IMG/VR virus record: IMGVR_UViG_3300047284_000516
Location: 1-64,000 of that record
Origin: a virus
Direction: 5' to 3' (one strand)
Length of the DNA stretch: 64,000 nt
In this document: in pieces, positions 20,736-58,566 of the stretch
How the letters are laid out: each line of letters begins with the position of its first letter
Position numbering within the stretch: the first letter of the stretch is position 1
Translations under genes and position numbers: made by a program
Notes under the pieces: model-generated
Databases searched by the model: none
What the model was told of the DNA's origin: nothing
Seen by the model: the letters and a program-made list of their open reading frames with translations, nothing else

Positions 20736-21584
20736 ATGGCTAAACTAAAAGTATCAGAGTTGTTTTACTCTTTGCAGGGCGAGGGAAGATATATGGGTAT
20801 CCCCTCTATCTTCCTCAGAACATATGGATGCAACTTCACGTGCTCTGGATTTGGTATGGGTCTTGGAGAGAAAAGTGAAGAGCGATTGCAAATTGTAGCA
20901 GAAAATTATAAATCATATAAAGATTTACCACTTGTTCATACTGGCTGTGACAGCTATGCTTCATGGGATCCAAGGTTCAAACATCTATCACCAATGTTGG
21001 AAACTTCTGCAGTAGTGGATAGTATTAAGCAGATACTTCCTGGTAATCGTTGGGGAGACGTTCATTTGGTGATTACTGGTGGCGAGCCTCTTTTAGGTTG
21101 GCAACGCTCATATCCTGAGCTTTTGGATGACCCGAGAAACAAAGATCTACAAGAGATCACATTTGAGACGAACGGTTCACAATATCTTACACCAGAATTT
21201 GAGAAGTATCTTTTCGAAGAATGGACTCGCCACGGTAGAGATTACCAGAAGTTGACATTCTCCGTATCTCCTAAACTATCTGTATCAGGGGAACGGTGGG
21301 AGGATGCTATCAAGCCAGAAGTTATTAAACAGTATGAGACGGTTGGATACACATACTTGAAGTTTGTTGTAGCTAGTAAGTATGATGTATCTGAAGCGGA
21401 AAATGCAGTGAATGAATATCGCAAAGTTGGCTTTGGTGGTCCAGTTTATCTCATGCCCTGCGGTGGCACTGAGCAACTTTATGAACTCAATAAAACACAA
21501 GTAGCTGAACATGCAATGAAGTTGGGATGGCGATATTCCGATAGACTACAGATTCCACTCTTTAAAAATGCATGGGGTACATGA
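20736..21584 (+). CDS. queE: QueE: 7-carboxy-7-deazaguanine synthase (radical SAM)
   Basis: A 282-residue radical SAM enzyme that converts 6-carboxytetrahydropterin to 7-carboxy-7-deazaguanine. It opens with SELFYSLQGEGRYMGIPSIF, standard for QueE. The cluster cysteines appear as C32-x3-C36 and then C71 in HTGCDSYASW after a 34-residue insert, the layout of phage QueE. ITGGEPLLGWQ (SAM-binding GGEP) lies near residue 110 and ETNGS near 145. First gene of the 7-deazaguanine cluster; its stop overlaps the phosphoribosyltransferase start. Confidence 0.93.
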   Translation: MAKLKVSELFYSLQGEGRYMGIPSIFLRTYGCNFTCSGFGMGLGEKSEERLQIVAENYKSYKDLPLVHTGCDSYASWDPRFKHLSPMLETSAVVDSIKQILPGNRWGDVHLVITGGEPLLGWQRSYPELLDDPRNKDLQEITFETNGSQYLTPEFEKYLFEEWTRHGRDYQKLTFSVSPKLSVSGERWEDAIKPEVIKQYETVGYTYLKFVVASKYDVSEAENAVNEYRKVGFGGPVYLMPCGGTEQLYELNKTQVAEHAMKLGWRYSDRLQIPLFKNAWGT

Positions 21585-22018
21585 TGGCATACAAATATTC
21601 ATTTCATGACTATAGTAATGATATTTTAAATCTTTACAGAAAGATTGTGGACTCTGGAACAAAATACGATTTGGTGGTTGGGGTTGCCCGAGGAGGCGTT
21701 ATTCCAGCAGTGCATTTATCCCATCTTCTTGAGGTTCCATATGCTACTCTTCAGTGGTCTACAGCAAAGGATCGGGTACAGGAGAGGAGTAATCCGCATA
21801 TTATGTGTGCTAAAGGTCCTGTTCTGATTGTCGATGATATTGTAGATGATGGTGGCACAATGAGAGGTATTATGGAGTCATATCCCCAATGTGATACCGC
21901 TTCTTTGTTACTGAATGTAACCAATAGATATAATGTGGTTCCGACATTCACATCATGGAGTTTTAGTAGAGAGGATGTTCCTCAATGGATTGATTTTTGG
22001 TGGGAGACTATTGCATGA
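21581..22018 (+). CDS. Xanthine/guanine-type phosphoribosyltransferase
   Basis: A 145-residue type I phosphoribosyltransferase. The PRPP-binding loop VLIVDDIVDDGGTM is at about residues 83-96 and the early loop GVARGGVIPAVHLS at about 36-49, as in Gpt-type enzymes. Such enzymes attach purine bases to PRPP. Between QueE and QueD it could salvage guanine or act on a deazapurine base, which is inference. Two ATGs (21581, 21584) compete; the first gives the ATGA overlap used throughout this operon. Confidence 0.82.
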   Translation: MMAYKYSFHDYSNDILNLYRKIVDSGTKYDLVVGVARGGVIPAVHLSHLLEVPYATLQWSTAKDRVQERSNPHIMCAKGPVLIVDDIVDDGGTMRGIMESYPQCDTASLLLNVTNRYNVVPTFTSWSFSREDVPQWIDFWWETIA

Positions 22019-22521
22019 CAACAAAAGTAACAAGGCATTACAAGTACGTTTCAACAAAAGAATATCATGACGCATTTCCATGTGCATATAGGCAGTGGAG
22101 AGCGGATAGTCATTGCAACTTGATTCATGGATATAGTTTTTCCATGAAGTTCTTTTTTGGTACGGATGATTTGGATGTGCGTAACTGGGCAGCAGATTAT
22201 GGGGGTCTAAAGGAGTTGAAAAAGATCCTTGAGGATCAGTTTGATCATACCCTTTTAGTATCGGAAGATGATCCAGAGCTCGAGACATACAAATTATTGC
22301 AGCAAAAGAATATGGCAAAGCTAACAATTCTTCCAAAGCTCGGATGCGAGGGTCTAGCAGATATGCTATACAAATATGTTAATGGTGTATACATTCCAGA
22401 TATGTGGGGTCCGGGTGAAGCAGAGCGTCTCTGGTGCTTCAGAGTAGAGGTTAGAGAGACGCAGACCAATATGGCTTTCAGACAGGGTCATAGAGAATGG
22501 GGGGAAAACCTTCTTGATTGA
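22015..22521 (+). CDS. queD: QueD-like 6-carboxytetrahydropterin synthase
   Basis: A 168-residue T-fold protein beginning MTTKVTRHYKYVSTKEYHD. The catalytic-Cys block reads SHCNLIHGYSF, and FDHTLLVSEDDPE gives the usual Asp-His pair. QueD turns dihydroneopterin triphosphate into 6-carboxytetrahydropterin. Compared with E. coli QueD, the first zinc His (AAHRL) appears as Tyr in PCAYRQW and HGH reads HGYS, so metal binding looks altered. HGY is, I believe, normal for this subfamily, while the CAY is less clear. ATGA overlap with the phosphoribosyltransferase. Confidence 0.85.
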   Translation: MTTKVTRHYKYVSTKEYHDAFPCAYRQWRADSHCNLIHGYSFSMKFFFGTDDLDVRNWAADYGGLKELKKILEDQFDHTLLVSEDDPELETYKLLQQKNMAKLTILPKLGCEGLADMLYKYVNGVYIPDMWGPGEAERLWCFRVEVRETQTNMAFRQGHREWGENLLD

Positions 22522-22534
22522 TTGTAAGGCGTTT

Positions 22535-23197
22535 ATGATTGTTGTAAAAGACAATCACGTCTCGCAATTCTATTCAAAGGTATGTATTCCTTCTTGGGAG
22601 AACAGGGGTGTGGATGTGCAGCTGTGGCAGGCCTCTACACCCCTTACTATAGACAAACGTCTTAGATTTGCTCCCATGACTACAATCAAGTACAGATCAC
22701 TTGGTATATCAAAAGAACTCACACCCACAGAACGGGCAGTATGGTCAAGCCACTTTAGAATGTGGGAACACTGCATTAATATCAATCAACCAATACTCGT
22801 ATTAGAGCATGATAGTTTTTGCATCAACATCGATCATTTAACCATACAACCACAAGCGTTTGTAACATATGATAAGGGAGCAATGGGCTGCTATATCATA
22901 CGACCGGAGTTTGCTAGGGTGTTAGTTGAGGATGCTATCAAGATTAGAATAGATTGTGGACCACTGGGATATGTAAAGTGGCGATCAGAAATACACAAAA
23001 TACCGATTATTACAGCCGAACACCCCTCATACAAAATGGTTTCGAACCAAGTATATTGTCCAGACTATGGACGTACTGTTGATCACTACACGGGAACAGA
23101 CGCTAAGAATCATATGCATCGATTCAATAAATTTGGATATCTTTTTGTAGATAGAAAAGGAAATGTTGACCTTAACCGAGTGATTGAGGTATTATGA
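22535..23197 (+). CDS. GT25-like glycosyltransferase
   Basis: A 220-residue protein resembling LPS-type glycosyltransferase family 25. MIVVKDNHVSQFYSKVCIPSW opens like the GT25 N-terminus (seen in parts), and LTPTERAVWSSHFRMWEHC with ILVLEHDSF is the core signature. Start taken at ATG 22535, which has AAGG seven bases upstream; an in-frame TTG lies at 22514. It sits between queD and folE, so it may belong to the DNA-modification cluster rather than to surface sugar synthesis. The donor and acceptor are unknown. Confidence 0.75.
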   Translation: MIVVKDNHVSQFYSKVCIPSWENRGVDVQLWQASTPLTIDKRLRFAPMTTIKYRSLGISKELTPTERAVWSSHFRMWEHCININQPILVLEHDSFCINIDHLTIQPQAFVTYDKGAMGCYIIRPEFARVLVEDAIKIRIDCGPLGYVKWRSEIHKIPIITAEHPSYKMVSNQVYCPDYGRTVDHYTGTDAKNHMHRFNKFGYLFVDRKGNVDLNRVIEVL

Positions 23198-23218
23198 GTT
23201 ATATTTTATGGAGGTAGT

Positions 23219-23902
23219 ATGGAAAAACACTTGTCGGAAGTAATTAGAGATCGTCTCAAGCAAAACAATAAGAGATACTTTGCTAGCGACAATATTTCTG
23301 ATTATATCACTGAAGATGAACAGAAGCAATTGGTTGAGGAGCTAACAGTAAAGTTTGAAGGGGTATTAGACTCGTTGATTATCGATAGAGAGAATGATCC
23401 CAATAGTCACGGCACTGCAAAGCGTCTCGCTAAAATGTATGTCTATGAACTAATGGAGGGTCGTTATTCTCCAATGCCTGATGTTACAGCGTTTCCAAAT
23501 CAAGGAGCGGATCGCTTTGAGGGAATGCTGGTAGTGAGGGCAGAGCTTGTGTCTATGTGTAGCCATCACCATCAGCCAGTTAAGGGGGTAGCAATTATCG
23601 GTATCATTCCTACAGGAGAAGTGATTGGCCTGTCCAAGTATGCGAGGATTGCTCAGTGGTGTGCTCGTAGAGGAACACTGCAAGAAGAGCTTGCCAATCA
23701 GATTGCTAAAGAAATTATGAATGCAACGGATACAGAGAATGTGGCTGTCCACTTAGACATGATTCATGGGTGTATGGAGAACCGAGGAGTGATGGCTCAT
23801 TCTAGCCAGACTCAAGCTACTGTGGTTCATGGGTTGTTTCACAACGATTCGGTCAAGGCTGAGTTTTTATCTCACGTCGATCGGCAGCTTTTAAGACGAT
23901 AA
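23219..23902 (+). CDS. folE: GTP cyclohydrolase I FolE
   Basis: A 227-residue enzyme making dihydroneopterin triphosphate from GTP, the first step toward 7-deazaguanines. Zinc-site blocks are visible: SMCSHHHQPVKG near residue 110 and HGCMENRGVMAHSSQT near 180, with IGLSKYARIAQWCARR between. The ribosome site GGAGG is strong. The 3' end overlaps by 50 bases the 3' end of the HNH gene on the other strand. This is the phage-type FolE with CSHHH in place of the bacterial CEHH block. Confidence 0.94.
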   Translation: MEKHLSEVIRDRLKQNNKRYFASDNISDYITEDEQKQLVEELTVKFEGVLDSLIIDRENDPNSHGTAKRLAKMYVYELMEGRYSPMPDVTAFPNQGADRFEGMLVVRAELVSMCSHHHQPVKGVAIIGIIPTGEVIGLSKYARIAQWCARRGTLQEELANQIAKEIMNATDTENVAVHLDMIHGCMENRGVMAHSSQTQATVVHGLFHNDSVKAEFLSHVDRQLLRR

Positions 23903-24485
23903 AGGAGCCATCCTCGCATGAGCTTATCATTTTTTTCATTTCGTAATCGGATAGTTGATAAGCTCTTGCTGCAGCTCTTAATGAATAAAAATAGCCATTA
24001 GGTGTTTTGACGTGGTTGGAATGTGGTCTGTTTTTAAGGTATTTTTCTTTTGATTCTTTTCTAAACATTGGATTGTGTTCTGTCATTCTTTTCTTTACTA
24101 TTTGTTTAACCTTTTCAGAAGCAAAAATATTATCCTTACCTTTTTTATATGTCCCTTTGCGTTTTCTTGTTTGAACACCTTTAAAATGGCTTTCTTTGCT
24201 CCAGCCCGGAGGAGGAACATGAAAGGATTTATCAAATAATTTATAAGCCCACATCATTTTGTGTTTATTTTGGCCTTCAGTAAATTTTATAAGTAAAAGA
24301 TGTGCTAGTTTGTGTTCTCGGAATGTTAACAGTACGATATTTTCTTCATCGTCGTTGCCACCCAGTGACCTTGGAATTATGTGGTGGAATTGCTGGTCGT
24401 CACCTTTAACTTTAACACGTCGTTGACTTTTAGCTCTTTCTATTAGAAGATTGTAGTGTTTTAGATATTTGTTTGTTGTGAACAT
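23853..24485 (-). CDS. HNH homing endonuclease (free-standing)
   Basis: The only clear minus-strand gene. The 210-residue protein starts at ATG 24485 (MFTTNKYLKHYNLLIERA); an in-frame TTG lies 15 bases upstream. The HNH core is FHHIIPRSLGGNDDEENIVLL, here in two parts, followed by FREHKLAHLLL. The middle is Lys-rich, and the C-terminus (YFYSLRAAARAYQLSDYEM) resembles NUMOD-type DNA-binding modules. Such genes are mobile and spread by cutting phages that lack them. Only a weak ribosome site is seen. Its tail overlaps folE by 50 bases. Confidence 0.88.
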   Translation of the reverse strand: MFTTNKYLKHYNLLIERAKSQRRVKVKGDDQQFHHIIPRSLGGNDDEENIVLLTFREHKLAHLLLIKFTEGQNKHKMMWAYKLFDKSFHVPPPGWSKESHFKGVQTRKRKGTYKKGKDNIFASEKVKQIVKKRMTEHNPMFRKESKEKYLKNRPHSNHVKTPNGYFYSLRAAARAYQLSDYEMKKMISSCEDGSFIVLKAADRREIKTQP

Positions 24486-24539
24486 AATGGCTGCATCCAA
24501 AAGGTTGTATGTAAACTATTTATAAAAAGAGGTGTTAAG

Positions 24540-24899
24540 ATGCAAATCGCTAACAAAAAATTTATTTGGGTTACGTTTCAACGAGAAGGTATACACAACT
24601 ATCCTATGGCTCCAGAGGGAGTGGAGTTTCTTAAATACCCACATCGTCATATATTTCATTTCAGAGTAGAACTGGAAGTATTTCATGATGATCGTGATGT
24701 GGAGTTTATTTTATTTAAACGAGAATTGGAAGCCATGTTTAATCAAAAGGGCATGCAGTTTGACTTTAAATCATGTGAAATGCTAGCAGATGATATCGCC
24801 AAGTATGTAAAGGAGCATTATCCTAATCGGGATTTAGTTGTCGAAGTCAGTGAAGATGGGGAAAATGGATGTCGTAACTACTATCAAGGAGTACAGTGA
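24540..24899 (+). CDS. Conserved phage protein, T-fold/QueD-like
   Basis: A 119-residue protein: KFIWVTFQREGIHNYP, HRHIFHFRVELEVFHDDRD, MQFDFKSCEMLADDIAKYV and VVEVSEDGENGC. I recognise this as a protein often found near nucleotide-modification genes in phages, always unnamed. Its length and strand-His-rich-strand layout resemble the T-fold of QueD and pterin synthases, which is my inference. It sits just before the dpdA-like gene and is joined to it by TGATG. A late-promoter-like TATAAAAA (24521) precedes it, with only weak support. Confidence 0.72.
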   Translation: MQIANKKFIWVTFQREGIHNYPMAPEGVEFLKYPHRHIFHFRVELEVFHDDRDVEFILFKRELEAMFNQKGMQFDFKSCEMLADDIAKYVKEHYPNRDLVVEVSEDGENGCRNYYQGVQ

Positions 24900-25741
24900 T
24901 GGCTTCGCCAATTAATTTCTGTCATATCGCACCTATTCCTCATTTGAAGGATTTTGTATCAACGAACAATGTTCATCTTACTCTTGCTCATTTAGTAGAA
25001 ACCAGTGATGAATATGCAGATTTCTATCATAACCGAAAGTCTGGCCAGGTTATTATGGATAATAGTGCATTTGAAATGTACAAGCAAGGTCGACCAATGT
25101 ATGATCCAAGTAAGCTGATTGATATGGCCCGAAGGTGTCGAGCAGATTATATTGTTATGTCAGATTATCCGGGAGAGTCTTGGCTAAAGACTAAGCACGC
25201 AGCTCAAGAATTAATTCCTCAGATCAAACAAGCTGGATTCAAGACATTCTATGTTCCTCAAAGTGAGCCAGGGCATCTCGAAGGGTACATTGCTTCTTTA
25301 GTCTGGGCGTTAGAAGATGGTGATGTGGATATGATTGGTCTTTCAATTCTCGGTGTACCTATGGCTATGGGAATCAAGCAGGATCACAACAAAGCATATT
25401 TTGCTCAAAGATTCCTCAGTCGTTGGCGATTGTTTCAGATTCTTGATCAGCGTGGGTATCTCTCACACACTGAAAGAGCAACTAAGCGCTTTCATTGCCT
25501 TGGAATGCAGGATGGACCCAATGAGATCTTGCTGCTGAAGCCATGGGCTCAGCACATCTACTCTTGGGATTCTAGTGCTGCTGTATGGGCAGGATTGAAT
25601 TATATTAAGTTTGATAGTTCACCTACGGGCTTGATGCATGGAAAGTATGAAGCGGAGGTTGATTTTAACTTCAAAGCAAGTCCAGCAACCATTAAACATG
25701 TGATGCGTAACATTAATTACATTAACAGTCTATGCGCATAA
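24899..25741 (+). CDS. dpdA: DpdA-like DNA guanine transglycosylase
   Basis: A 280-residue TIM-barrel protein resembling tRNA-guanine transglycosylases and the phage DpdA family, which swaps guanine in DNA for a 7-deazaguanine. Candidate active-site aspartates are D54 in IMDNSAFE, D89 in VMSDYPGE and D224 in HIYSWDSSAAVW, the last matching the TGT nucleophile. RFHCLGMQDGPNEI precedes it as in the TGT GxG region. It lacks the TGT C-terminal zinc site. Context with FolE, QueD and QueE strongly supports the role. ATG 24899 preferred over GTG 24896. Confidence 0.78.
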   Translation: MASPINFCHIAPIPHLKDFVSTNNVHLTLAHLVETSDEYADFYHNRKSGQVIMDNSAFEMYKQGRPMYDPSKLIDMARRCRADYIVMSDYPGESWLKTKHAAQELIPQIKQAGFKTFYVPQSEPGHLEGYIASLVWALEDGDVDMIGLSILGVPMAMGIKQDHNKAYFAQRFLSRWRLFQILDQRGYLSHTERATKRFHCLGMQDGPNEILLLKPWAQHIYSWDSSAAVWAGLNYIKFDSSPTGLMHGKYEAEVDFNFKASPATIKHVMRNINYINSLCA

Positions 25742-29246: not shown

Positions 29247-29449
29247 AATACAAGAATCGGGTTGGAGATATTGCTGTTCTTAAGAATGGTCGATATGGTG
29301 TCTATAATGGTTTTAATGGCAGATTCCATAGAGTTGTGGAGAGTCAGGGAGACTGGCCATTTCCTATCATTCACTTCCTAGAAACTAATCAGTTTAGTCT
29401 GGTAACAAAATCCAAACTAATAGATGATCTTGAACCAGCCCTCTTTTAG
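29207..29449 (+). CDS. Small hypothetical protein between genes 44 and 62
   Basis: An 80-residue protein. ATG 29207 gives MPGRNNGDSTVAVKYKNRVG; a GTG at 29237 would shorten the overlap with gene 44. The core VGDIAVLKNGRYGVYNGFNG and FPIIHFLETNQFSLVTKSKL suggests a small SH3-like beta barrel, though I recognise no family. It is translated in the replication operon and overlaps the following oxygenase gene by 26 bases. Confidence 0.6.
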   Translation: MPGRNNGDSTVAVKYKNRVGDIAVLKNGRYGVYNGFNGRFHRVVESQGDWPFPIIHFLETNQFSLVTKSKLIDDLEPALF

Positions 29450-30011
29450 CTTACATCGTAATGTTGTACATGTTAGATCGTATGAAGAGGATAGCGCTAG
29501 AAGCTTTCTAGAGCGTCATAGAGACGATAACTTTCATCGCAGTCAAATCTATCGTACCGATACTAAAGCGGCTCTTATAGACGATTCTAGAACGTCCAAA
29601 CAAGCTGATATACATCCTAGCGATCAACATATGCAGCGATTGGCTGAGTTAACACGTAAGGTCAACCATAGCATATTTGTAGCTTCTGTTGATCGATATT
29701 GTTTTGAAACTAATTTTCTAAGATACGACAAAGGAGATCAGTTTACTAAACACAATGATATGATCCTTCCCAAGGATCCTTCTAGGATTGATAGGCATCC
29801 AATTAGAAAGCTTACAACTATCCAATTAATCTCGGATCCTGATCAATTCATGGGAGGAGAATTGAGATTCTTCTATGGGGAAGTCAGATTTAGGATGGAG
29901 ATGGGCTTTGCAGATGTGTTTATTTTTCCCTCATATGTCAATCATGTTGTGGAACCTCTTCAATCAGGCACAAGATACAGTATCGTATCTTGGTCACACG
30001 GACGATTCTAA
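29424..30011 (+). CDS. 2OG-Fe(II) oxygenase (prolyl-hydroxylase-like)
   Basis: A 195-residue 2-oxoglutarate- and iron-dependent oxygenase. The iron ligands read H110-x-D112 in FTKHNDM and H174 in FPSYVNHVVEP, and R184 in SGTRYSIVSW binds 2-oxoglutarate. All key residues are present, so it should be active. T4-like marine phages carry several such enzymes, with unknown substrates (protein, nucleic acid or glycan). It is inserted between clamp-loader genes 44 and 62. Confidence 0.87.
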   Translation: MILNQPSFSLHRNVVHVRSYEEDSARSFLERHRDDNFHRSQIYRTDTKAALIDDSRTSKQADIHPSDQHMQRLAELTRKVNHSIFVASVDRYCFETNFLRYDKGDQFTKHNDMILPKDPSRIDRHPIRKLTTIQLISDPDQFMGGELRFFYGEVRFRMEMGFADVFIFPSYVNHVVEPLQSGTRYSIVSWSHGRF

Positions 30012-45110: not shown

Positions 45111-45659
45111 ATGAAAACAGTAGGTGATAAGATTAGTGAATTTGTAGTAACTGGTGTCAATCCTGGTAGCGACCAATTCTTTGACATCACAGAAAAGTCT
45201 TTTGAAGGTAAATGGAAAGTTATTGTATTCTATCCAAAAGATTTCACATTTGTATGCCCAACTGAGATCGTTGCATATGATAAGTTGTTCCAAGACTTTG
45301 CAGATCGCGATGCCGTCCTTCTGACAGGTTCTACAGATAACGAATTCTGTAAACTTGCTTGGCAGCGTCATCATGAGGATCTCTCCAAGATCAAACATAT
45401 TCAGTTTGCTGACACTCAGCGTCGTAATGCAGATTACGATACTCTGAGTCTTGCTGATCAACTTGGTGTATTCTTTGCACCTGCAGGCGCAGCACTTCGC
45501 GCAACATTTATTGTTGATCCTGATAATGTGATTCAGCACGTAACAGTTAATAACCTCAACGTTGGTCGCAGTCCAGATGAAACATTGCGTATTCTCGACG
45601 CACTTCAGACTGGCGAACTCTGCGCATGTAACCGTGCTGTGGGTGGAGAGACCCTATAA
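45111..45659 (+). CDS. ahpC: Peroxiredoxin AhpC
   Basis: A 182-residue two-cysteine peroxiredoxin that reduces hydrogen peroxide and organic peroxides. The peroxidatic Cys49 is in KDFTFVCPTEIVAY; the C-terminal GELCACNRAVGG gives Cys171 and Cys173. This C-x-C end is the pattern of the Mycobacterium AhpC that is recycled by AhpD, not AhpF, and an AhpD gene lies two genes downstream. The start has AGGAAG upstream. An inverted repeat lies in the leader. Confidence 0.95.
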   Translation: MKTVGDKISEFVVTGVNPGSDQFFDITEKSFEGKWKVIVFYPKDFTFVCPTEIVAYDKLFQDFADRDAVLLTGSTDNEFCKLAWQRHHEDLSKIKHIQFADTQRRNADYDTLSLADQLGVFFAPAGAALRATFIVDPDNVIQHVTVNNLNVGRSPDETLRILDALQTGELCACNRAVGGETL

Positions 45660-45661
45660 TC

Positions 45662-46327
45662 ATGTTAGAGACCATCTGTGATACAATGGTCGAAGCTTAC
45701 CGTCGCAATTGGATTACTAGTCGCGACGGTAACGTAAGCATTCGGCATCATGATAGAGACCATTTTTACATCACTCCATCTGGTGTGCGGAAACAGACTT
45801 TGCAACCGGATCAGTTCAAGAAGATCGGCATTGTAGAAGGATTTTATGGTCAACCTCCTCGTTTAGAGCATAATTATGAAGTACGTGATTACACAGACAT
45901 TAGTAAAAATCTGAAACCTAGTGGTGAGATTCCATTGCATTTTGGATTGCAAAAAGAGTTGGGGCAGCACTCTAGTGATGTGAGGGTTGTAATGCATTTT
46001 CATCCAACTTACTGTGTAGCTGCGATGCATGCTGGGATTGAGCTTGCAGACCTAACAAAAGATTTCCCCGAGCTATCGCGGTATACGAAGGTTGCTTCAA
46101 ATGTAGGAGATGTTCCTCCAATCAGTCAAGAACTTGCCGATCGCTGTTTTGAAAATCTTAAATTGGATAAAAATGGCTTCGTAAAATATGATATTGTTGG
46201 AATCAAAGGTCACGGTGTAGTGAGTATCGATACTTCACCGTGGAGGGCTTTTGAACACATTGAACGGCTTGAGCATATTTGTCAAATAGTACTAGTTTCG
46301 AAAGGATACACAAATGCAGTGGGTTGA
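45662..46327 (+). CDS. Class II aldolase/adducin-family protein
   Basis: A 221-residue zinc aldolase-like protein. SRDGNVSIRHHDRDHFYITP and SGVRKQTL form the usual N-terminal phosphate-binding part; SGEIPLHFGL near residue 87 carries the catalytic Glu, and VVMHFHPTYCVAAMHAG near 110 and IVGIKGHGVVSI near 180 supply zinc His residues. Relatives are fuculose- or ribulose-phosphate aldolases/epimerases. Its substrate is unknown. It is locked between ahpC and ahpD (two-base gap, 14-base overlap). Confidence 0.87.
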   Translation: MLETICDTMVEAYRRNWITSRDGNVSIRHHDRDHFYITPSGVRKQTLQPDQFKKIGIVEGFYGQPPRLEHNYEVRDYTDISKNLKPSGEIPLHFGLQKELGQHSSDVRVVMHFHPTYCVAAMHAGIELADLTKDFPELSRYTKVASNVGDVPPISQELADRCFENLKLDKNGFVKYDIVGIKGHGVVSIDTSPWRAFEHIERLEHICQIVLVSKGYTNAVG

Positions 46328-46823
46328 TACACTTAAAGAAGGGTTACCAGATTATGCAAAGGACACCCGCCTTAATATCGATGCAGTAATTAAACGTAGT
46401 GCGCTTGATCCAGAGATGGTTGAGTATGTGGCACTAGCTGCAACATTTGCTACTGGTAATACAAAGCTCTGGACATGGATTGCTAGTCAACTTACCAACG
46501 AGACCGAAAAGAATGCCGCACTCACAGCAGCTTCTTTAATGGGTATGAATAATGTGTGGTATCCGTATGTCGAGATGGCAGAAGATGAGCAATTAACAGG
46601 TCTACCTGCTCAGCTTCGTATGAATGCTATTGCTACGCATGGCGGTACAACAAAGGCTAGATTCGAAGCTTACAGTCTAGCTGCATCAATTGTTGGTAAA
46701 TGTCACTTCTGTGTCAAAGCTCACTACAATACTTTGAAAAAAGAAGGGTACACTGTTGAACAATTGAGAGATTTAGGTAGAATATCATCAGTGATTGCAG
46801 CAGTATCTAAGATCATGGTTTAA
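46314..46823 (+). CDS. ahpD: AhpD-like alkylhydroperoxidase
   Basis: A 169-residue protein of the AhpD/carboxymuconolactone decarboxylase family. The active site GKCHFCVKAHY gives Cys130-x-x-Cys133 and His137, with Glu118 in RFEAYSLAAS; these positions coincide with the catalytic residues of Mycobacterium AhpD as I remember them. Full two-domain helical length is present. It would reduce AhpC or peroxides using host lipoyl proteins. It overlaps the aldolase gene and is followed at once by a tRNA and terminator. Confidence 0.93.
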   Translation: MQWVDTLKEGLPDYAKDTRLNIDAVIKRSALDPEMVEYVALAATFATGNTKLWTWIASQLTNETEKNAALTAASLMGMNNVWYPYVEMAEDEQLTGLPAQLRMNAIATHGGTTKARFEAYSLAASIVGKCHFCVKAHYNTLKKEGYTVEQLRDLGRISSVIAAVSKIMV

Positions 46824-46827
46824 TCAT

Positions 46828-46904
46828 GCCCTGGTAGCTCAGTTGGTCAGAGCAGGCGACTCATAATCGCTTGGTCGGGGGTTCAAGTCCCTCCCGGGGT
46901 ACCA
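46828..46904 (+). tRNA. tRNA-Ile2 (anticodon CAT, lysidine type)
   Basis: Acceptor GCCCTGG/CCGGGGT, D-stem GCTC/GAGC, anticodon stem GGCGA/TCGCT with loop CTCATAA (CAT), T-stem GGGGG/CCCTC, encoded CCA. The segment GAGCAGGCGACTCATAAT matches E. coli ileX, so this is the isoleucine tRNA whose C34 becomes lysidine and reads ATA, not a methionine tRNA. Confidence 0.88.
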
Positions 46905-46910
46905 AACACT

Positions 46911-46935
46911 AGTCCCTCCTAGCGAGGGACTTTTC
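46911..46935 (+). terminator. Rho-independent terminator after tRNA-Ile2
   Basis: AGTCCCTC (46911-46918) pairs perfectly with GAGGGACT (46924-46931) around CTAGC, followed by TTT (T-run 46931-46934). It ends the ahpC-tRNA transcript. Confidence 0.9.
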
Positions 46936-46950
46936 ATATGACCTTAATGG

Positions 46951-46978
46951 TTGACTATTTACTTATTTGTGGTATAAT
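46951..46978 (+). promoter_or_regulatory. Sigma-70-type early promoter
   Basis: TTGACT (46951) and TATAAT (46973) are separated by 16 bases, directly after a terminator and 26 bases before the next ATG. This is the best host-type promoter in the window and should start an early transcript into the sugar-tailoring island. Confidence 0.85.
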
Positions 46979-47511: not shown

Positions 47512-47939
47512 AATACACAGTAGCATTGGAAGAAAATGAGGACGGTGAGCTTGTACTGCCTGTTACCCAAGCAATCCTCGATGAGGTAGGTTGGAAAGAG
47601 GGAGATACGCTAGTGTGGTCAGATAATGGGGATGGCACATTTACGTTGACCCGCAAACCTCAGGAAACAGAGCTTGTGATGGTGGAAGCAATATCTCAGT
47701 TTCGTATGAGATATTGCGTAGAGGTTCCCAAAGGAAAACGTGAATATGCGCTTGATACTGTGGTGATGGAAGAGGCTAAGGAATTCTCACAGTTGTCTCT
47801 TGGGGAAACTATTGTTTCCGATCGTATCGTTTCATTAGAAGATGCAATCCAATTGTTCAGAGAGGAACACAATTATCTTACATCGTGGTCTGATGAACAG
47901 ATTATCGGCTTCTGCATTACCAAAATCAATGGCAGTTGA
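47508..47939 (+). CDS. AbrB/SpoVT-domain protein with C-terminal phage domain
   Basis: A 143-residue protein. The N-terminal 52 residues read like an AbrB/MazE swapped-hairpin DNA-binding domain (LVLPVTQAILDEVGWKEGDT, then DGTFTLTRK). The C-terminal part (FRMRYCVEVPKGKREYALDT onward) resembles DpnD/PcfM-like small phage domains. It could be a transcription regulator of the early operon. ATGA overlap with the protease gene; 11-base overlap with the oxygenase. Confidence 0.75.
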   Translation: MKYTVALEENEDGELVLPVTQAILDEVGWKEGDTLVWSDNGDGTFTLTRKPQETELVMVEAISQFRMRYCVEVPKGKREYALDTVVMEEAKEFSQLSLGETIVSDRIVSLEDAIQLFREEHNYLTSWSDEQIIGFCITKINGS

Positions 47940-48426
47940 AATATACGAGAATTTTTTGGAGATCAAGCTGCTAGATGAGTTGAGGAGATATCAAACAAAC
48001 CTTCTCAAATCTAAGCAGCATAGTTTATTTACTAATATGACCTGGGAGCAGACGATAGTTCTTGAAAGTGCTCCGGTTTTAATTCATACTTTGGCCAGCG
48101 ACACCACTTTATATGAACAAATACATCAAACAATTACAACAAAGATTGAAATGCTGCCAAAGCATATCATGCTCTACACATGGACTCGATTTAGCTATAT
48201 TCCATGGCATAATGATTGGACCCACAAAGCAGGTCTTACAGTATATTTAAATAAATCCAAAACTGTTAATTCAGGTGGTATTTTCTTGTATAAAGAAGAT
48301 GAACAAATTAAAGGAATTGCTCCGGAAGGAAATCAAGCAGTCCTAGTACGAGGTGGTGTTGAACATTGTGTTACCCCAGTTATAAGTACAGGAGTACTTC
48401 GTAATACACTACAAGTGTTCTTTTAA
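47929..48426 (+). CDS. 2OG-Fe(II) oxygenase
   Basis: A 165-residue oxygenase. Start ATG 47929 (MAVEIYENFLEIKLLDEL). Iron ligands appear as H-x-D in YIPWHNDWTHKAG near residue 86 and His in RGGVEHCVTPVIS near 145; the Arg in GVLRNTLQVFF near the end fits the 2-oxoglutarate contact. All key residues are present. It opens the sugar-tailoring island and touches the next gene without a gap. Confidence 0.82.
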   Translation: MAVEIYENFLEIKLLDELRRYQTNLLKSKQHSLFTNMTWEQTIVLESAPVLIHTLASDTTLYEQIHQTITTKIEMLPKHIMLYTWTRFSYIPWHNDWTHKAGLTVYLNKSKTVNSGGIFLYKEDEQIKGIAPEGNQAVLVRGGVEHCVTPVISTGVLRNTLQVFF

Positions 48427-50103
48427 ATGAAAAATAATGTAACCTTTGTAACCGGTATTTGGGACATGGGTCGTGATCAGCTTACGGATGGGTTTGGTCG
48501 ACCTTTCTCACATTATCTTGAGCGTTTTGAGCGCCTTCTCAATCTGAATATCAACTTAGTGGTCTTTGGGCCCAAACAGTTGGAAAATATAGTTTTGGCA
48601 AGGAGCTCTCGCAACAGAACTTTCTTCAAGCAAAAAGAACTTTCTGACTTCGATTCTTGGTTTCCTTTCTTCGATAAGGTGGATCAGCTCCGCACAAGCA
48701 GCGAGTGGCTATATGATCAGCCGACATGGCTATACCAATCCCCTCAAGCAGCTCTGAAGTATTACAATCCCGTTATCATGTCTAAGTTTTTTATGTTGAA
48801 TGATGCAATGTATTTTGATGGACATGCATCAGATTATTATTTTTGGATAGATGGTGGATTAATTAATACTGTCCCAGCAGAGAAAATAGTAAATGCTAAT
48901 TATACTCCTGAATATCTAAAAGCCAATAATGCTGAGGATAAACTTCTATTCCTCAGCTTTGATTATCAAGGTAGTCATGAGATTCACGGATTTAAACGAG
49001 AGGGATTGGAAACCTTCTGTGGGAAGAAGACAACGAGAGTTCCTCGAGGAGGATTTTTTGGTGGTAGAAAGGATATTGTTAGATCATTTAATCCACGATA
49101 CTATGATCACCTAAGTCAGTCTCTTCATGCTGGTTATATGGGAACTGAAGAGAGCGTGTTTTGTATTCTTGATGCAAAATATCCAGAAGACATCCACCAT
49201 TTTAATGTGGATGGGGGAGCATTGTATCCCTTTTTTAATCATTTGCAGCAACACCAAGTACCAGAAGAAACGGTCAAAGTGTATGATCGTTCCTTTGATC
49301 AATTGAAGACCGCAATCTATATTCTCACATTCAATAGTCCAGAACAAACAGAGTGGTTGCTAAGATCATTTGAGTTGGCAGATCCCAATTTTATTATCAA
49401 ACCAGATATTTTTCTTATCGATAATTCAACGAATAAAAATACTACCCTTTCCTATCAAAAGCTTTGTAAACAGTATGGGATCACATATCTAAAGCAAAAG
49501 GAAAACATAGGAATTACTGGGGGCAGACTATTTGCAGCAAAGCATTTTCATCAAAATGACTATGACTATTATCTATTTTTTGAAGATGATATGATGCTCC
49601 ATGCACCATCATATACTACTTGTAATGCAGGATATCCTTCTTACAAAACTAATCTGTTTAACAAGACACTACACATCATCCATGAGGAAAAATATGATTT
49701 TTTGAAGCTGAGTTTTTCCGAATTTTATGGAACAAACAAGAAGCAATGGGCATGGTATAATATCGATGATCATATTAGAGAGAAGTGGTTTCCAGACCAT
49801 CCAACCAAACACAACTATGCCGAGGCTCCAGAAACGATCTTTGGACCGAAAAAATCCTACCAAGATGTTGACTATATGGAGGGAGAGTGCTATTATTGTA
49901 ATTGGCCTTTGTGGTTTTCAAGAGAGGGTAATTATAAGGTCTTCATTGAACCTGGTAACAGTTATCCATCCGAACAATGGGTTATGAAGAATACATTCTA
50001 CTTGCAACGAGAGGGATATGTTAAAGCAGCAATACTACAACTGTCTCCCATCAATCATTATAGATTTGCTCACTATGAGCAAGAAGAGAGGAAAGAAGTA
50101 TGA
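48427..50103 (+). CDS. Two-domain glycosyltransferase (HtrL/YibB + GT2)
   Basis: A 558-residue fusion. The N-terminal 280 residues resemble HtrL/YibB-type proteins (VTFVTGIWDMGRDQL, YYFWIDGGLINTVPA, GFFGGRKDIVRSF). From about residue 297 a GT2 domain starts (AIYILTFNSPEQTEWLLRSF), with LIDNSTNKN and YYLFFEDDMMLHAPS giving the acidic metal site near 385. Likely a bifunctional transferase building a two-sugar unit. The 3' end overlaps the next gene by four bases. Confidence 0.8.
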   Translation: MKNNVTFVTGIWDMGRDQLTDGFGRPFSHYLERFERLLNLNINLVVFGPKQLENIVLARSSRNRTFFKQKELSDFDSWFPFFDKVDQLRTSSEWLYDQPTWLYQSPQAALKYYNPVIMSKFFMLNDAMYFDGHASDYYFWIDGGLINTVPAEKIVNANYTPEYLKANNAEDKLLFLSFDYQGSHEIHGFKREGLETFCGKKTTRVPRGGFFGGRKDIVRSFNPRYYDHLSQSLHAGYMGTEESVFCILDAKYPEDIHHFNVDGGALYPFFNHLQQHQVPEETVKVYDRSFDQLKTAIYILTFNSPEQTEWLLRSFELADPNFIIKPDIFLIDNSTNKNTTLSYQKLCKQYGITYLKQKENIGITGGRLFAAKHFHQNDYDYYLFFEDDMMLHAPSYTTCNAGYPSYKTNLFNKTLHIIHEEKYDFLKLSFSEFYGTNKKQWAWYNIDDHIREKWFPDHPTKHNYAEAPETIFGPKKSYQDVDYMEGECYYCNWPLWFSREGNYKVFIEPGNSYPSEQWVMKNTFYLQREGYVKAAILQLSPINHYRFAHYEQEERKEV

Positions 50104-50717
50104 CGTGGACCTTTGATTTTGAAATGCCTACAACAAAGCTGAAGGATCAAGATCTTACGGATTTTAATATCCATGAATGTTTTCTGTGGAAAGAGGCAAC
50201 AACGGAAGATGATTTAAAATTTGCAGCTGATCTGATTATAGATCAACATGCAACAATTGGTAATGATAATACTGTGAAAAAGGATATTCGCAATCACCTT
50301 ATAGGGGAAGAAATAGAGATTGATGCAAAAAGTGGGTCCTTTTTCATGTTGCTCAAGGAAAGGATCAACTCGGTAAATTTCTTTCACTATAATTATCGTC
50401 TGTGGTCTGTAGAAGCACTCCTACCCTGTAAATATGATGAAAATCATTTTTATAAGATGCATAGTGATCGTATTATGCAAAAATCTAACGTTGAACGAAA
50501 AATGACGGTTTTGATAGGTCTTACTAATGAGTCAGCATATCAGGGTGGCGAGGTAATTGTCTCAGCTTCGGGGAATGATAAATATTCCACGATTGTAAGG
50601 TTAAATCGGGGCGATATGCTTTTTATTCCATCGTTTGTTCCTTACAGTGTCTCTAAAATAAAAAGTGGCAGCAATCAAATGTTAATATCTTGGGTACTAG
50701 GTCCCAAGTTTGTATAA
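50100..50717 (+). CDS. 2OG-Fe(II) oxygenase-like protein, active site degenerate
   Basis: A 205-residue protein with the prolyl-hydroxylase-like fold: FYKMHSDR gives H121-x-D123, and RLNRGDMLFIPSFVPYSVSK matches the distal region. At the expected distal iron His there is Tyr182, and the expected 2-oxoglutarate Arg is Asn192 (SGSNQMLISW). The intact family member at 29424 has His and Arg at the same spacing. So the protein may be inactive or changed in chemistry. ATGA overlap upstream. Confidence 0.75.
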   Translation: MTWTFDFEMPTTKLKDQDLTDFNIHECFLWKEATTEDDLKFAADLIIDQHATIGNDNTVKKDIRNHLIGEEIEIDAKSGSFFMLLKERINSVNFFHYNYRLWSVEALLPCKYDENHFYKMHSDRIMQKSNVERKMTVLIGLTNESAYQGGEVIVSASGNDKYSTIVRLNRGDMLFIPSFVPYSVSKIKSGSNQMLISWVLGPKFV

Positions 50718-55787: not shown

Positions 55788-57455
55788 ATGAATTATGCAA
55801 ATGTGACGTGGGGGAATTCTCACCGTTTCCCTAACTATATTGGTAGATCCTATCCCCCCTTAAAAGATACAGACTTCACTCTGGCATTTTATGGAAGCCA
55901 TAATGCCTCCTTTACAATTGCAAAGGGTGGTCAGATTTTAGAGGTACTGGAGTTCGAGCGCTTTATTAACTACAAAAATGCTGGTGCTGCCCAGTATAAA
56001 ACCCCATTACAGGAAAATATTATTCCTCTTGTAGATGGTGTGCAGAAATACTTTGAAAACAAGTACCAAGCCTTTACATACAAATATGTTCTCTATCAAA
56101 ATACTTCCGTAATTATAGATGGTATTGTGGTGGATGTACATAATATATTTCCTACATCCCATTATATCGACTGTCTCCACCACTACTCCCATGCAGCAGG
56201 ATGTTTCTATCAATCACCCTTCGAAGCTGCTCTTACGATCACTAGCGATGGAGGTGGAAATGATGGGGTGTTTAATGTGTTTTATTGTGAACGCGGTGAA
56301 GAACCTAAGTTCATAACTGAATATCCATTAGACCTAGGTTTCCCATACATGAGCTTTGGTGAATACTTGGGGGACATCAAGAGGGAATCCACTCTTGCTG
56401 ATGGTAATCTCGTATATTCTGGTAAAATCATGGGTCTTGTATCATATGGTAAAGTTAGAGAGGAGTGGGTTGAACCCATGAAGAAATATTATCTCTCGCT
56501 TCCAAGTGGAGAGACATATGCAGATTTAATCCAGCTGCTTGGTAAGCAGATGGGAATAGTATTTGATACTGAGAATAGATTATCTGGCCGAACAGCTTAC
56601 GATGTTGCCGCTACATCACAGTTTGTGTTCGAAACTATTTTGTTTGAATGTATTGATCAGCATGTAGAAGGATATCCTAATCTTCCCCTATGCTTTGCTG
56701 GGGGTTGTGCTCTCAATATTCTAGCAAATACCGCAATGTCAACTAGATATGGTAGAGAGGTATTTGTTGGACCTAACCCCAATGATTGTGGTCTTTCGTT
56801 GGGAATGATGCTAAGTGTCCTAAAACCAGAACAACCCTTTAATGCAACCTACAGTGGCCCCATGTTATTTGATACTCAGATGCTGCCCTACTATATCCAC
56901 GAACGACCCTATACTCTTCAAAATCTCAATGTTGAATATCTTGCAGAAAAGATTGCTGACGGTAAAATAGTGGGAGTAGCTAGAGGTCGTGCTGAGCATG
57001 GACCAAGAGCTCTGGGTAATAGAAGTATTCTTTGTAATCCTGCTATAGCAGATATGAAAGACATTCTTAATAAGAAAATAAAAAATAGGGAATGGTATAG
57101 ACCGTTTGCTCCGGTAGTTCGTATTGAGGATGTCAGTAAGTATTTTGAATGGGATAAGGAATGTAAATGGATGTCATTTGCTCCAATGGTCAGAGAGGAA
57201 TATAGGAACAAATTACCATCTATTACACATGTAGATGGTACTGCAAGAGTACAGACCGTCCGCAGAGAAGATAATCCTTTCCTCTATGATTTGATAACTG
57301 CAGTAGGTAATCGTACGGGTTACTATGTCCTCTTAAATACCTCCTTTAACGTTGATGGCAAACCTATCCTTTCCACCATAAAAGATGCATTAACTATTTT
57401 TGATAACAAGGAAATGGATGTGTTGGTGATAGAGGATCAGCTGATCAGTAAATAA
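55788..57455 (+). CDS. Carbamoyltransferase, NodU/CmcH family (full length)
   Basis: A 555-residue enzyme. The N-terminal Kae1-like domain has FYGSHNASFTIAKGG near residue 34, the metal-binding HHYSHAAGCFYQSPF near 130 and TSDGGGNDGVFNV near 152. The C-terminal YrdC-like domain has GVARGRAEHGPRALGNRSIL near 397 and YVLLNTSFNVDGKPI near 515. Such enzymes transfer a carbamoyl group from carbamoyl phosphate, through carbamoyl-AMP, to sugar hydroxyls. GGAG ribosome site. Confidence 0.93.
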   Translation: MNYANVTWGNSHRFPNYIGRSYPPLKDTDFTLAFYGSHNASFTIAKGGQILEVLEFERFINYKNAGAAQYKTPLQENIIPLVDGVQKYFENKYQAFTYKYVLYQNTSVIIDGIVVDVHNIFPTSHYIDCLHHYSHAAGCFYQSPFEAALTITSDGGGNDGVFNVFYCERGEEPKFITEYPLDLGFPYMSFGEYLGDIKRESTLADGNLVYSGKIMGLVSYGKVREEWVEPMKKYYLSLPSGETYADLIQLLGKQMGIVFDTENRLSGRTAYDVAATSQFVFETILFECIDQHVEGYPNLPLCFAGGCALNILANTAMSTRYGREVFVGPNPNDCGLSLGMMLSVLKPEQPFNATYSGPMLFDTQMLPYYIHERPYTLQNLNVEYLAEKIADGKIVGVARGRAEHGPRALGNRSILCNPAIADMKDILNKKIKNREWYRPFAPVVRIEDVSKYFEWDKECKWMSFAPMVREEYRNKLPSITHVDGTARVQTVRREDNPFLYDLITAVGNRTGYYVLLNTSFNVDGKPILSTIKDALTIFDNKEMDVLVIEDQLISK

Positions 57456-57456
57456 A

Positions 57457-58566
57457 ATGGCCATCAGATTACCTTCTGATATTCCATTTTTCTATAGTCC
57501 ATATTATTGGCCTCAAGAGCTTCCAAAGCCAGAGGCTAATAAATTCTATCTTGCTGTCAATGGTTGTCATAATGGTTCAATAGTAATAGCCAAAGGTAGT
57601 ACAATTATTGAGCATCTAGAATTTGAAAGACTGCTGGGTATCAAAAACGTAGGTATAGCTGATTATCTTACCCCACCAAACAATCTCATCTTTCCTATAT
57701 GGAAACGGATTATGCAGTTCCTCATGAACAAGCATAACATAGAGCTCTTTGATATCTGTTTCTATAATGCCACCTACAACATACTGACGGACAAGAAGCA
57801 TTCAATACTTGATCTGATTCCCATTACACAAAGAATAGAGATACAGCATCACGTTGCTCATGCCATGGGTAGTCTCTACCAATCCCCATATAATGAAGCT
57901 TTATGTGTCACAGCAGATGGAGGTGGTAATGATGGTATATTCTATGTGTACAGGTGCTCTAAAGGTCACAATCCAAAGATGATTGTAGGAAGTCCATTAG
58001 ATTTAGGACTTACATATGCTGCACTGGCGCACTATCTAAAGGAAATAAAACAAAAAGATTGGTTGAACGGTAACTTAGAATATCCAGGTAAGTTGATGGG
58101 GTTAGCGGCATATGGTACTGTAGTACAGCAGTGGATCCCAGAAATTAGAAAGTATGTATGTAACAAACCGGGAATGAGAACATACTATGATTATCACGTA
58201 ATAGAGCAGCATATTGCGGAATTAGGAAAGCGGATAGGTATAACATTTGATAAAAACCGGAGAATAGAAGGTCAAATGTCATATGATCTAGCAGCTACAT
58301 TTCAGCATGTATTGGAGCAAGTGTTCATGGAGATAATTTCTCCAATTGTAGAATATCATCAACTTCCTGTTTGCTTTTCAGGTGGGGTTGCATTAAACGT
58401 GTTACTAAATACGAAGCTAGCAAAGGTTTGTGATTTGTTTGTTGGACCAGCTCCTAACGATAGTGGGATAGCTCTTGGTGCAATGCTTCATTTCATTAAA
58501 CCTCTGGAACCGTTTGACGGAACCTATAGTACTCTCGATCTACTAGATGATTACTTTTATAAATAA
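57457..58566 (+). CDS. Carbamoyltransferase paralogue lacking C-terminal domain
   Basis: A 369-residue protein paralogous to the N-terminal part of the preceding gene: LAVNGCHNGSIVIAKGS, the metal-site HHVAHAMGSLYQSPYNEAL, TADGGGNDGIFYV and LPVCFSGGVALNVLLNTKLA. It stops before the ARGRAEHGPRALGNRS domain that makes carbamoyl-AMP. The end (LDLLDDYFYK) overlaps a late promoter rather than showing a frameshift. It may depend on the full-length partner's second domain. One base separates the two genes. Confidence 0.85.
   Translation: MAIRLPSDIPFFYSPYYWPQELPKPEANKFYLAVNGCHNGSIVIAKGSTIIEHLEFERLLGIKNVGIADYLTPPNNLIFPIWKRIMQFLMNKHNIELFDICFYNATYNILTDKKHSILDLIPITQRIEIQHHVAHAMGSLYQSPYNEALCVTADGGGNDGIFYVYRCSKGHNPKMIVGSPLDLGLTYAALAHYLKEIKQKDWLNGNLEYPGKLMGLAAYGTVVQQWIPEIRKYVCNKPGMRTYYDYHVIEQHIAELGKRIGITFDKNRRIEGQMSYDLAATFQHVLEQVFMEIISPIVEYHQLPVCFSGGVALNVLLNTKLAKVCDLFVGPAPNDSGIALGAMLHFIKPLEPFDGTYSTLDLLDDYFYK
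58558..58565 (+). promoter_or_regulatory. T4-type late promoter at 58.6 kb
   Basis: Perfect TATAAATA, formed by the last codons and stop of the truncated carbamoyltransferase, 40 bases before the next ATG. It should start a late transcript of the following virion-type genes. Confidence 0.85.

Follow-up and report, generated by a model that had tools for sequence, protein, structure and literature searches.

An ahpC-ahpD pair common in uncultured aquatic phages and a probably mobile class II aldolase

Introduction

Peroxide defence by AhpC and AhpD is known from bacteria. In B. thailandensis, the pair runs on NADH through the chain Lpd-SucB-AhpD-AhpC; Cys57 is the peroxidatic residue of AhpC, Cys171 and Cys173 are resolving, and the Cys-X-X-Cys motif of AhpD is required (PMC6626918). 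A more distant counterpart is the M. tuberculosis AhpC-AhpD-SucB-Lpd peroxidase, which supplies the best PDB relatives of the proteins described here. One RNA phage formed no plaques on a host that had lost ahpB, and its plating fell to ~2%, a cut of about fifty-fold, when katB was lost (PMC7452160). Among class II aldolases, DrdA prefers acetaldehyde as a substrate, with condensation favored at equilibrium (PMC6079011). Here, we describe a phage locus in which a class II aldolase gene lies between ahpC and ahpD. Like known phage auxiliary metabolic genes, the three are host-type metabolic genes under purifying selection in phages; unlike for those genes, no report of AhpC-AhpD or of a class II aldolase in phages was found in the open-licence literature.

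Results

Three overlapping or abutting genes in a T4-like phage

The window analyzed here is a 64-kb stretch of DNA that forms part of the 79.9-kb IMG/VR virus record IMGVR_UViG_3300047284_000516. The features of the locus are as follows.

45111..45659, plus strand: AhpC, a C-x-C type 2-Cys peroxiredoxin (182-aa ORF)
45662..46327, plus strand: class II aldolase (Aldolase_II) of a divergent subfamily (221-aa ORF)
46314..46823, plus strand: AhpD-like protein (169-aa ORF)
46828..46904, plus strand: tRNA gene with anticodon CAT, directly 3' of AhpD
46911..46931, plus strand: terminator-like hairpin AGTCCCTC-CTAGC-GAGGGACT, then TTT (consensus match only)
46951..46978, plus strand: sigma-70-like promoter match, 11/12, with an extended -10 (consensus match only)

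The first-pass annotation of this DNA had placed the three protein-coding genes at 45111-46823; the ORFs proved exact, all on the plus strand, and the families were confirmed. Only 2 nt separate the AhpC gene from the aldolase gene, and the aldolase and AhpD frames overlap by 14 nt. Judging from this spacing and from terminator and promoter consensus scans, the three genes and the tRNA gene probably form one transcription unit, with the hairpin as its probable end; the promoter-like site, which would serve the next unit, supports an end before it. The anticodon arm of the tRNA resembles that of E. coli tRNA-Ile2, which reads AUA.

The contig that carries the trio also codes for a T4-type terminase, a helicase, an SbcC-like nuclease, a DNA polymerase, a portal, a tail sheath and a major head protein, and its DNA polymerase is ~50% identical to those of T4-like cyanomyoviruses. 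These head, tail and replication genes, together with the kinship of the polymerase, identify the contig, on its gene content, as that of a T4-like myophage, so the trio is phage-borne, as first proposed. The host is an aquatic, probably Gram-negative bacterium.

The AhpC and AhpD-like proteins retain their catalytic residues and are under purifying selection

The first protein matches the AhpC-TSA family (4e-22), and its best PDB relative is M. tuberculosis AhpC (2bmx, 1e-38). The other matches the CMD family (1e-11) and the TIGR00777 model (2e-33), and its best PDB relative is M. tuberculosis AhpD (1gu9, 1e-23). Against the TIGR03137 equivalog, AhpC scored 116.4 bits, below the cut-off of 272, and AhpD scored 115.4 bits over the full length of TIGR00777, below the cut-off of 191.95; for this reason, the proteins are described here as AhpC- and AhpD-like in their working and not as members of those two models. 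The AhpD-like protein does belong to the AhpD core-domain family TIGR00778 (31.4 bits; cut-off, 27.8).

The peroxidatic cysteine of AhpC is Cys49, within the motif FTFVCPTE, and the C-terminal C-x-C takes the form CAC (Cys171 and Cys173) within ELCACN. The codons of the catalytic residues are as follows.

45255-45257, plus strand: AhpC Cys49
45621-45623, plus strand: AhpC Cys171
45627-45629, plus strand: AhpC Cys173
46665-46667, plus strand: AhpD Glu118
46701-46703, plus strand: AhpD Cys130
46710-46712, plus strand: AhpD Cys133
46722-46724, plus strand: AhpD His137

Both the peroxidatic Cys49 and the resolving Cys171 and Cys173 are kept in 132/134 phage AhpC sequences, and all four AhpD residues are invariant across 136 phage sequences. 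The catalytic residues are the same as in the M. tuberculosis proteins, which bears out the earlier description of a C-x-C of the Mycobacterium type and of an AhpD with its four residues in place. One difference from M. tuberculosis, which the first-pass annotation did not mention, is that His132 of the C-S-H-C motif is replaced by Phe132 in the phage protein, giving CHFC. The Burkholderiaceae AhpD proteins examined (L260 and L263) share this motif, and Phe132 is therefore a trait of the lineage rather than damage. Median dN/dS values were 0.077 (AhpC), 0.051 (aldolase) and 0.062 (AhpD); together with the conservation of residues, these low values rule out dead proteins.

The pair is widespread in uncultured phages

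At least 595 confirmed relatives were found in each of three scans of viral contigs. Linkage was counted on the contigs of the closest relatives only, with genes called by a simple longest-ORF script. Of the 173 contigs bearing either gene, 164 carry both in the order ahpC-ahpD on a single strand; in the 9 exceptions, less than 1.6 kb of contig is left where the partner gene is expected. The gap between the two genes is shorter than 30 nt in 84 contigs, 30 to 500 nt in 33, 0.5 to 2 kb in 41, and 2 to 3 kb in 6. Some contigs with ahpC or ahpD relatives exceed 300 kb. In two loci, a second, degenerate AhpC-like gene lies downstream of AhpD (L194:4335-4835 and L209:1749-2249); His replaces the peroxidatic Cys, and the C-terminal C-x-C is absent, so that the product is perhaps a non-catalytic partner.

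Among 50,697 cultured-phage records, none matched the AhpD of the window, and the AhpC matches that spanned most of the query were ~25 to 35% identical, at most ~35%. The one AhpC match examined further, in Microcystis phage MaAM05 (MW495066.1), was rejected as a phage gene because genes for a ribosomal protein, nusG and secE surround its peroxiredoxin gene, so the record looks bacterial. The pair is common in uncultured aquatic phages and undescribed in the literature searched. The first annotator knew of no such three-gene phage cassette; no paper on one was found, but uncultured phages with the trio are not rare.

The pair has its nearest bacterial kin in Burkholderiaceae

An AhpD match was present in 18/401 Burkholderiaceae genomes, and AhpC adjoined it in all 18. 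In these loci, AhpC is ~60 to 71% identical to the phage protein where it is complete or nearly so, and AhpD is mostly 53 to 63% identical, with one outlier at 38%; the aldolase is absent within ~1.5 kb of AhpC/AhpD in all of them. The bacterial and phage pairs share gene order, adjacency, the C-terminal C-x-C and, in the AhpD proteins examined, CHFC. They differ in that the phage AhpC has CAC whereas the bacterial AhpC proteins examined have CPC, and in that the phage pair resides in a lytic-type phage genome, here with an aldolase inserted. In a quick tree, the sampled phage AhpC sequences form a clade of their own beside Burkholderiaceae AhpC (SH-aLRT 100). The corresponding AhpD tree, likewise a quick one, is less clear-cut. 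By sequence, the bacterial genes closest to the phage pair are the adjoining ahpC and ahpD of Burkholderiaceae; the M. tuberculosis pair is more distant.

At least one AhpC match in the cultured-phage collection comes from a bacterial-looking record, which raises the concern that the trio could be bacterial contamination or a set of decaying host genes. Conversely, the trio lies within an 80-kb contig bearing head, tail and replication genes, ahpC/ahpD genes occur in very many viral contigs, the phage AhpC proteins fall in one clade, and dN/dS is low. Contamination is already refuted by the genomic context, and we give this explanation practically no credence.

A candidate phage-resident peroxidase

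The genes, residues, linkage, selection and kinship of the pair are all evident at the level of sequence, and from them we infer its electron flow, expression and benefit. The reading that we consider probable is a captured, phage-resident NADH-lipoyl-AhpD-AhpC peroxidase joined by a separately mobile aldolase. Electrons would pass from host NADH through host dihydrolipoamide dehydrogenase to a lipoylated E2 subunit (SucB), assuming that matching lipoyl partners are present in the host, and from SucB to the Cys130-Cys133 pair of AhpD. AhpD would then reduce the Cys49-Cys171/173 disulfide of AhpC, which in turn would reduce H2O2 and organic hydroperoxides, and peroxide removal would let the infected cell, along with phage enzymes sensitive to oxygen, keep working. 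The earlier claim that both partners of one redox system are present is upheld by the key residues, the purifying selection, the strict linkage in phages and the proven betaproteobacterial counterpart.

Some 2-Cys peroxiredoxins are known to act as chaperones or sensors, and Hsp20 genes lie near AhpC/AhpD in 22 loci, as might be expected if the phage AhpC were a redox-regulated chaperone or a peroxide sensor rather than a bulk peroxidase. Its strict pairing with the reductant AhpD points to turnover, however, and we regard such a role as very unlikely. Strong purifying selection on a matched pair in a great many uncultured aquatic phage contigs suggests that peroxide limits lytic phage growth in these waters.

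The aldolase retains a class II active site

The aldolase matches Aldolase_II (PF00596) with 96.3 bits (3e-27; cut-off, 22.2) and falls below the cut-off of every named NCBIfam subfamily, the best being MtnB (TIGR03328; 43.4 bits against a cut-off of 137). Glu89, His112, His114 and His184 are invariant in 78 sequences, and all four align with those of the solved sugar-phosphate aldolase 1pvt. Compared with a list of FucA residues taken from PMC11841055, the majority of phosphate-site residues are retained, as placed by motif rather than by structure; an AlphaFold model (mean pLDDT, 44) was too poor for use. The phage enzyme thus shares with FucA, DrdA and MtnB the Pfam domain, the three His ligands, the catalytic Glu and most of the phosphate site. 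It differs from FucA in that the phosphate ligand Ser72 is replaced by an invariant Gly88 (SGE instead of SSE), and from all three in its RNR and AhpC/AhpD gene contexts, which are not known for those enzymes. Pyruvic oxime dioxygenase has an N-terminal extension of 20 to 30 residues and lacks a counterpart of FucA Glu73 (PMC11841055); this identity was ruled out, since the phage protein has no such extension and retains Glu89. The aldolase is read as a metal-dependent class II enzyme that probably has a sugar phosphate as its substrate or couples a small aldehyde with dihydroxyacetone phosphate.

The second of these activities would permit removal of small aldehydes by condensation with dihydroxyacetone phosphate, complementing peroxide removal. 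The metal-binding, catalytic and most phosphate-site residues are kept, and some aldolase relatives adjoin a gene of the PTPS family, whose QueD-type members release acetaldehyde. DrdA can favor condensation with acetaldehyde (PMC6079011), and the phage enzyme might act likewise. Against it, the aldolase often lies in an RNR operon, a setting in which no aldehyde arises, and an invariant Gly occupies the position of Ser72; we consider aldehyde removal unlikely. The peroxide half of the originally proposed function is well supported, whereas its other half, a tie of the aldolase to the disposal of a reactive carbonyl compound, found no direct support and is conjectural.

The aldolase has two preferred genomic homes

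Aldolase contexts were counted in the 80 loci closest to the query and so describe near relatives. Among these best 80, the aldolase is within three genes of NrdA/NrdB in 42 and of AhpC/AhpD in 26, with 7 more close to a gene of the PTPS family and 5 in other places. At RNR, a recurrent order is nrdA-aldolase-nrdB-glutaredoxin, with frames mostly abutting or overlapping; it occurs in many aquatic phages (e.g., L104:7239-11751 and L099:7659-11752), and no description of it was found in the open-licence literature. The aldolase tree implies several switches between the RNR and AhpC/AhpD homes. On long contigs, the aldolase can be 19 to 124 kb away from ahpCD, and either may occur alone, though such contigs are possibly incomplete. 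The aldolase is locked between AhpC and AhpD, as first described, in the genome of the window, but most ahpCD relatives are without it and its more frequent position is at nrdA-nrdB, so that a trio behaving as one locked unit is not supported. The best reading of these distributions is that the aldolase is a separately mobile accessory, kept beside AhpC/AhpD or among RNR genes, and its two strongly preferred homes offer a concrete way into what may be a new enzyme function.

Genes for a GDSL-hydrolase, TerC and uncharacterized proteins also occur between ahpC and ahpD in relatives, which makes a permissive gap a reasonable rival: the space could be a tolerated insertion slot in an accessory region, and the aldolase, without any tie to peroxide, could serve RNR or nucleotide metabolism. 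The absence of the aldolase from most ahpCD pairs, its prevalence at nrdA/nrdB in often overlapping frames and its occasional great distance from ahpCD all fit this explanation. Less easily accommodated are the concentration of 93% of the best 80 aldolase loci in just three contexts, two of them oxygen- or thiol-linked, and the redox- or light-related neighbors of several bacterial copies, variable as these are. An insertion slot is thus a serious contender, although on balance we lean against it.

Aldolase-bearing bacterial genomes show no matching AhpD

Copies of the aldolase that are 66 to 74% identical were found in genomes of freshwater betaproteobacteria (Polynucleobacter, Limnohabitans and others), including 6/151 genomes of the Polynucleobacter group. 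A matching AhpD was present in 0/9 aldolase-bearing betaproteobacterial genomes. Within the Polynucleobacter group, AhpD of the type in the window was found in 0/151 genomes, although the same query gave the Burkholderiaceae matches above, and a close AhpC in 0/101. The proposed search for the gene order across bacteria and phages found all three genes together in phages alone; the bacterial loci tested lack the trio. Some neighbors of the bacterial copies are redox- or light-related but vary between genomes: they include a glutathione-reductase-like flavoprotein, DoxX, a 1-Cys peroxiredoxin, a photolyase-related protein, a MerR regulator and rhodopsin. The bacterial copies nest inside the phage sequences in a quick tree; a tree in which all phage aldolases were constrained to a single clade could not be rejected (AU p 0.715), and no direction of transfer is therefore claimed. 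One betaproteobacterial copy (L279; G006, contig 1, 288465-289082) has an in-frame TAG and is perhaps a pseudogene.

More speculatively, the aldolase may be a new functional partner of both O2-dependent dNTP synthesis and peroxide removal, coupled by aquatic phages to class I ribonucleotide reductase or to AhpC/AhpD because it disposes of a metabolite of oxidative load. The genes would then make up a phage stress module that is widespread, as yet undescribed and shared by exchange with freshwater betaproteobacteria. We hold this only tentatively and think it improbable.

Other genes of the phage

The nrdA and nrdB genes of this phage lie past the window, at 66431-72111 of the contig (L237:2932-8612), several genes apart and with no aldolase between them. 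Within the window, positions 20736-25741 hold a PTPS-family gene, GTP cyclohydrolase I and a frame that is QueE-like by motif only, which suggest a pterin or 7-deazaguanine pathway; this PTPS is 80% identical to the PTPS adjoining the aldolase in other phages. Three genes resemble 2OG-Fe(II) oxygenases, which are oxygen-using enzymes (29424-30011, 50100-50717 and 47842-48426, the last scoring below the Pfam cut-off). Finally, two adjacent genes at 55788-58566 share a match to phrog_1601, a Nol-like carbamoyltransferase family.
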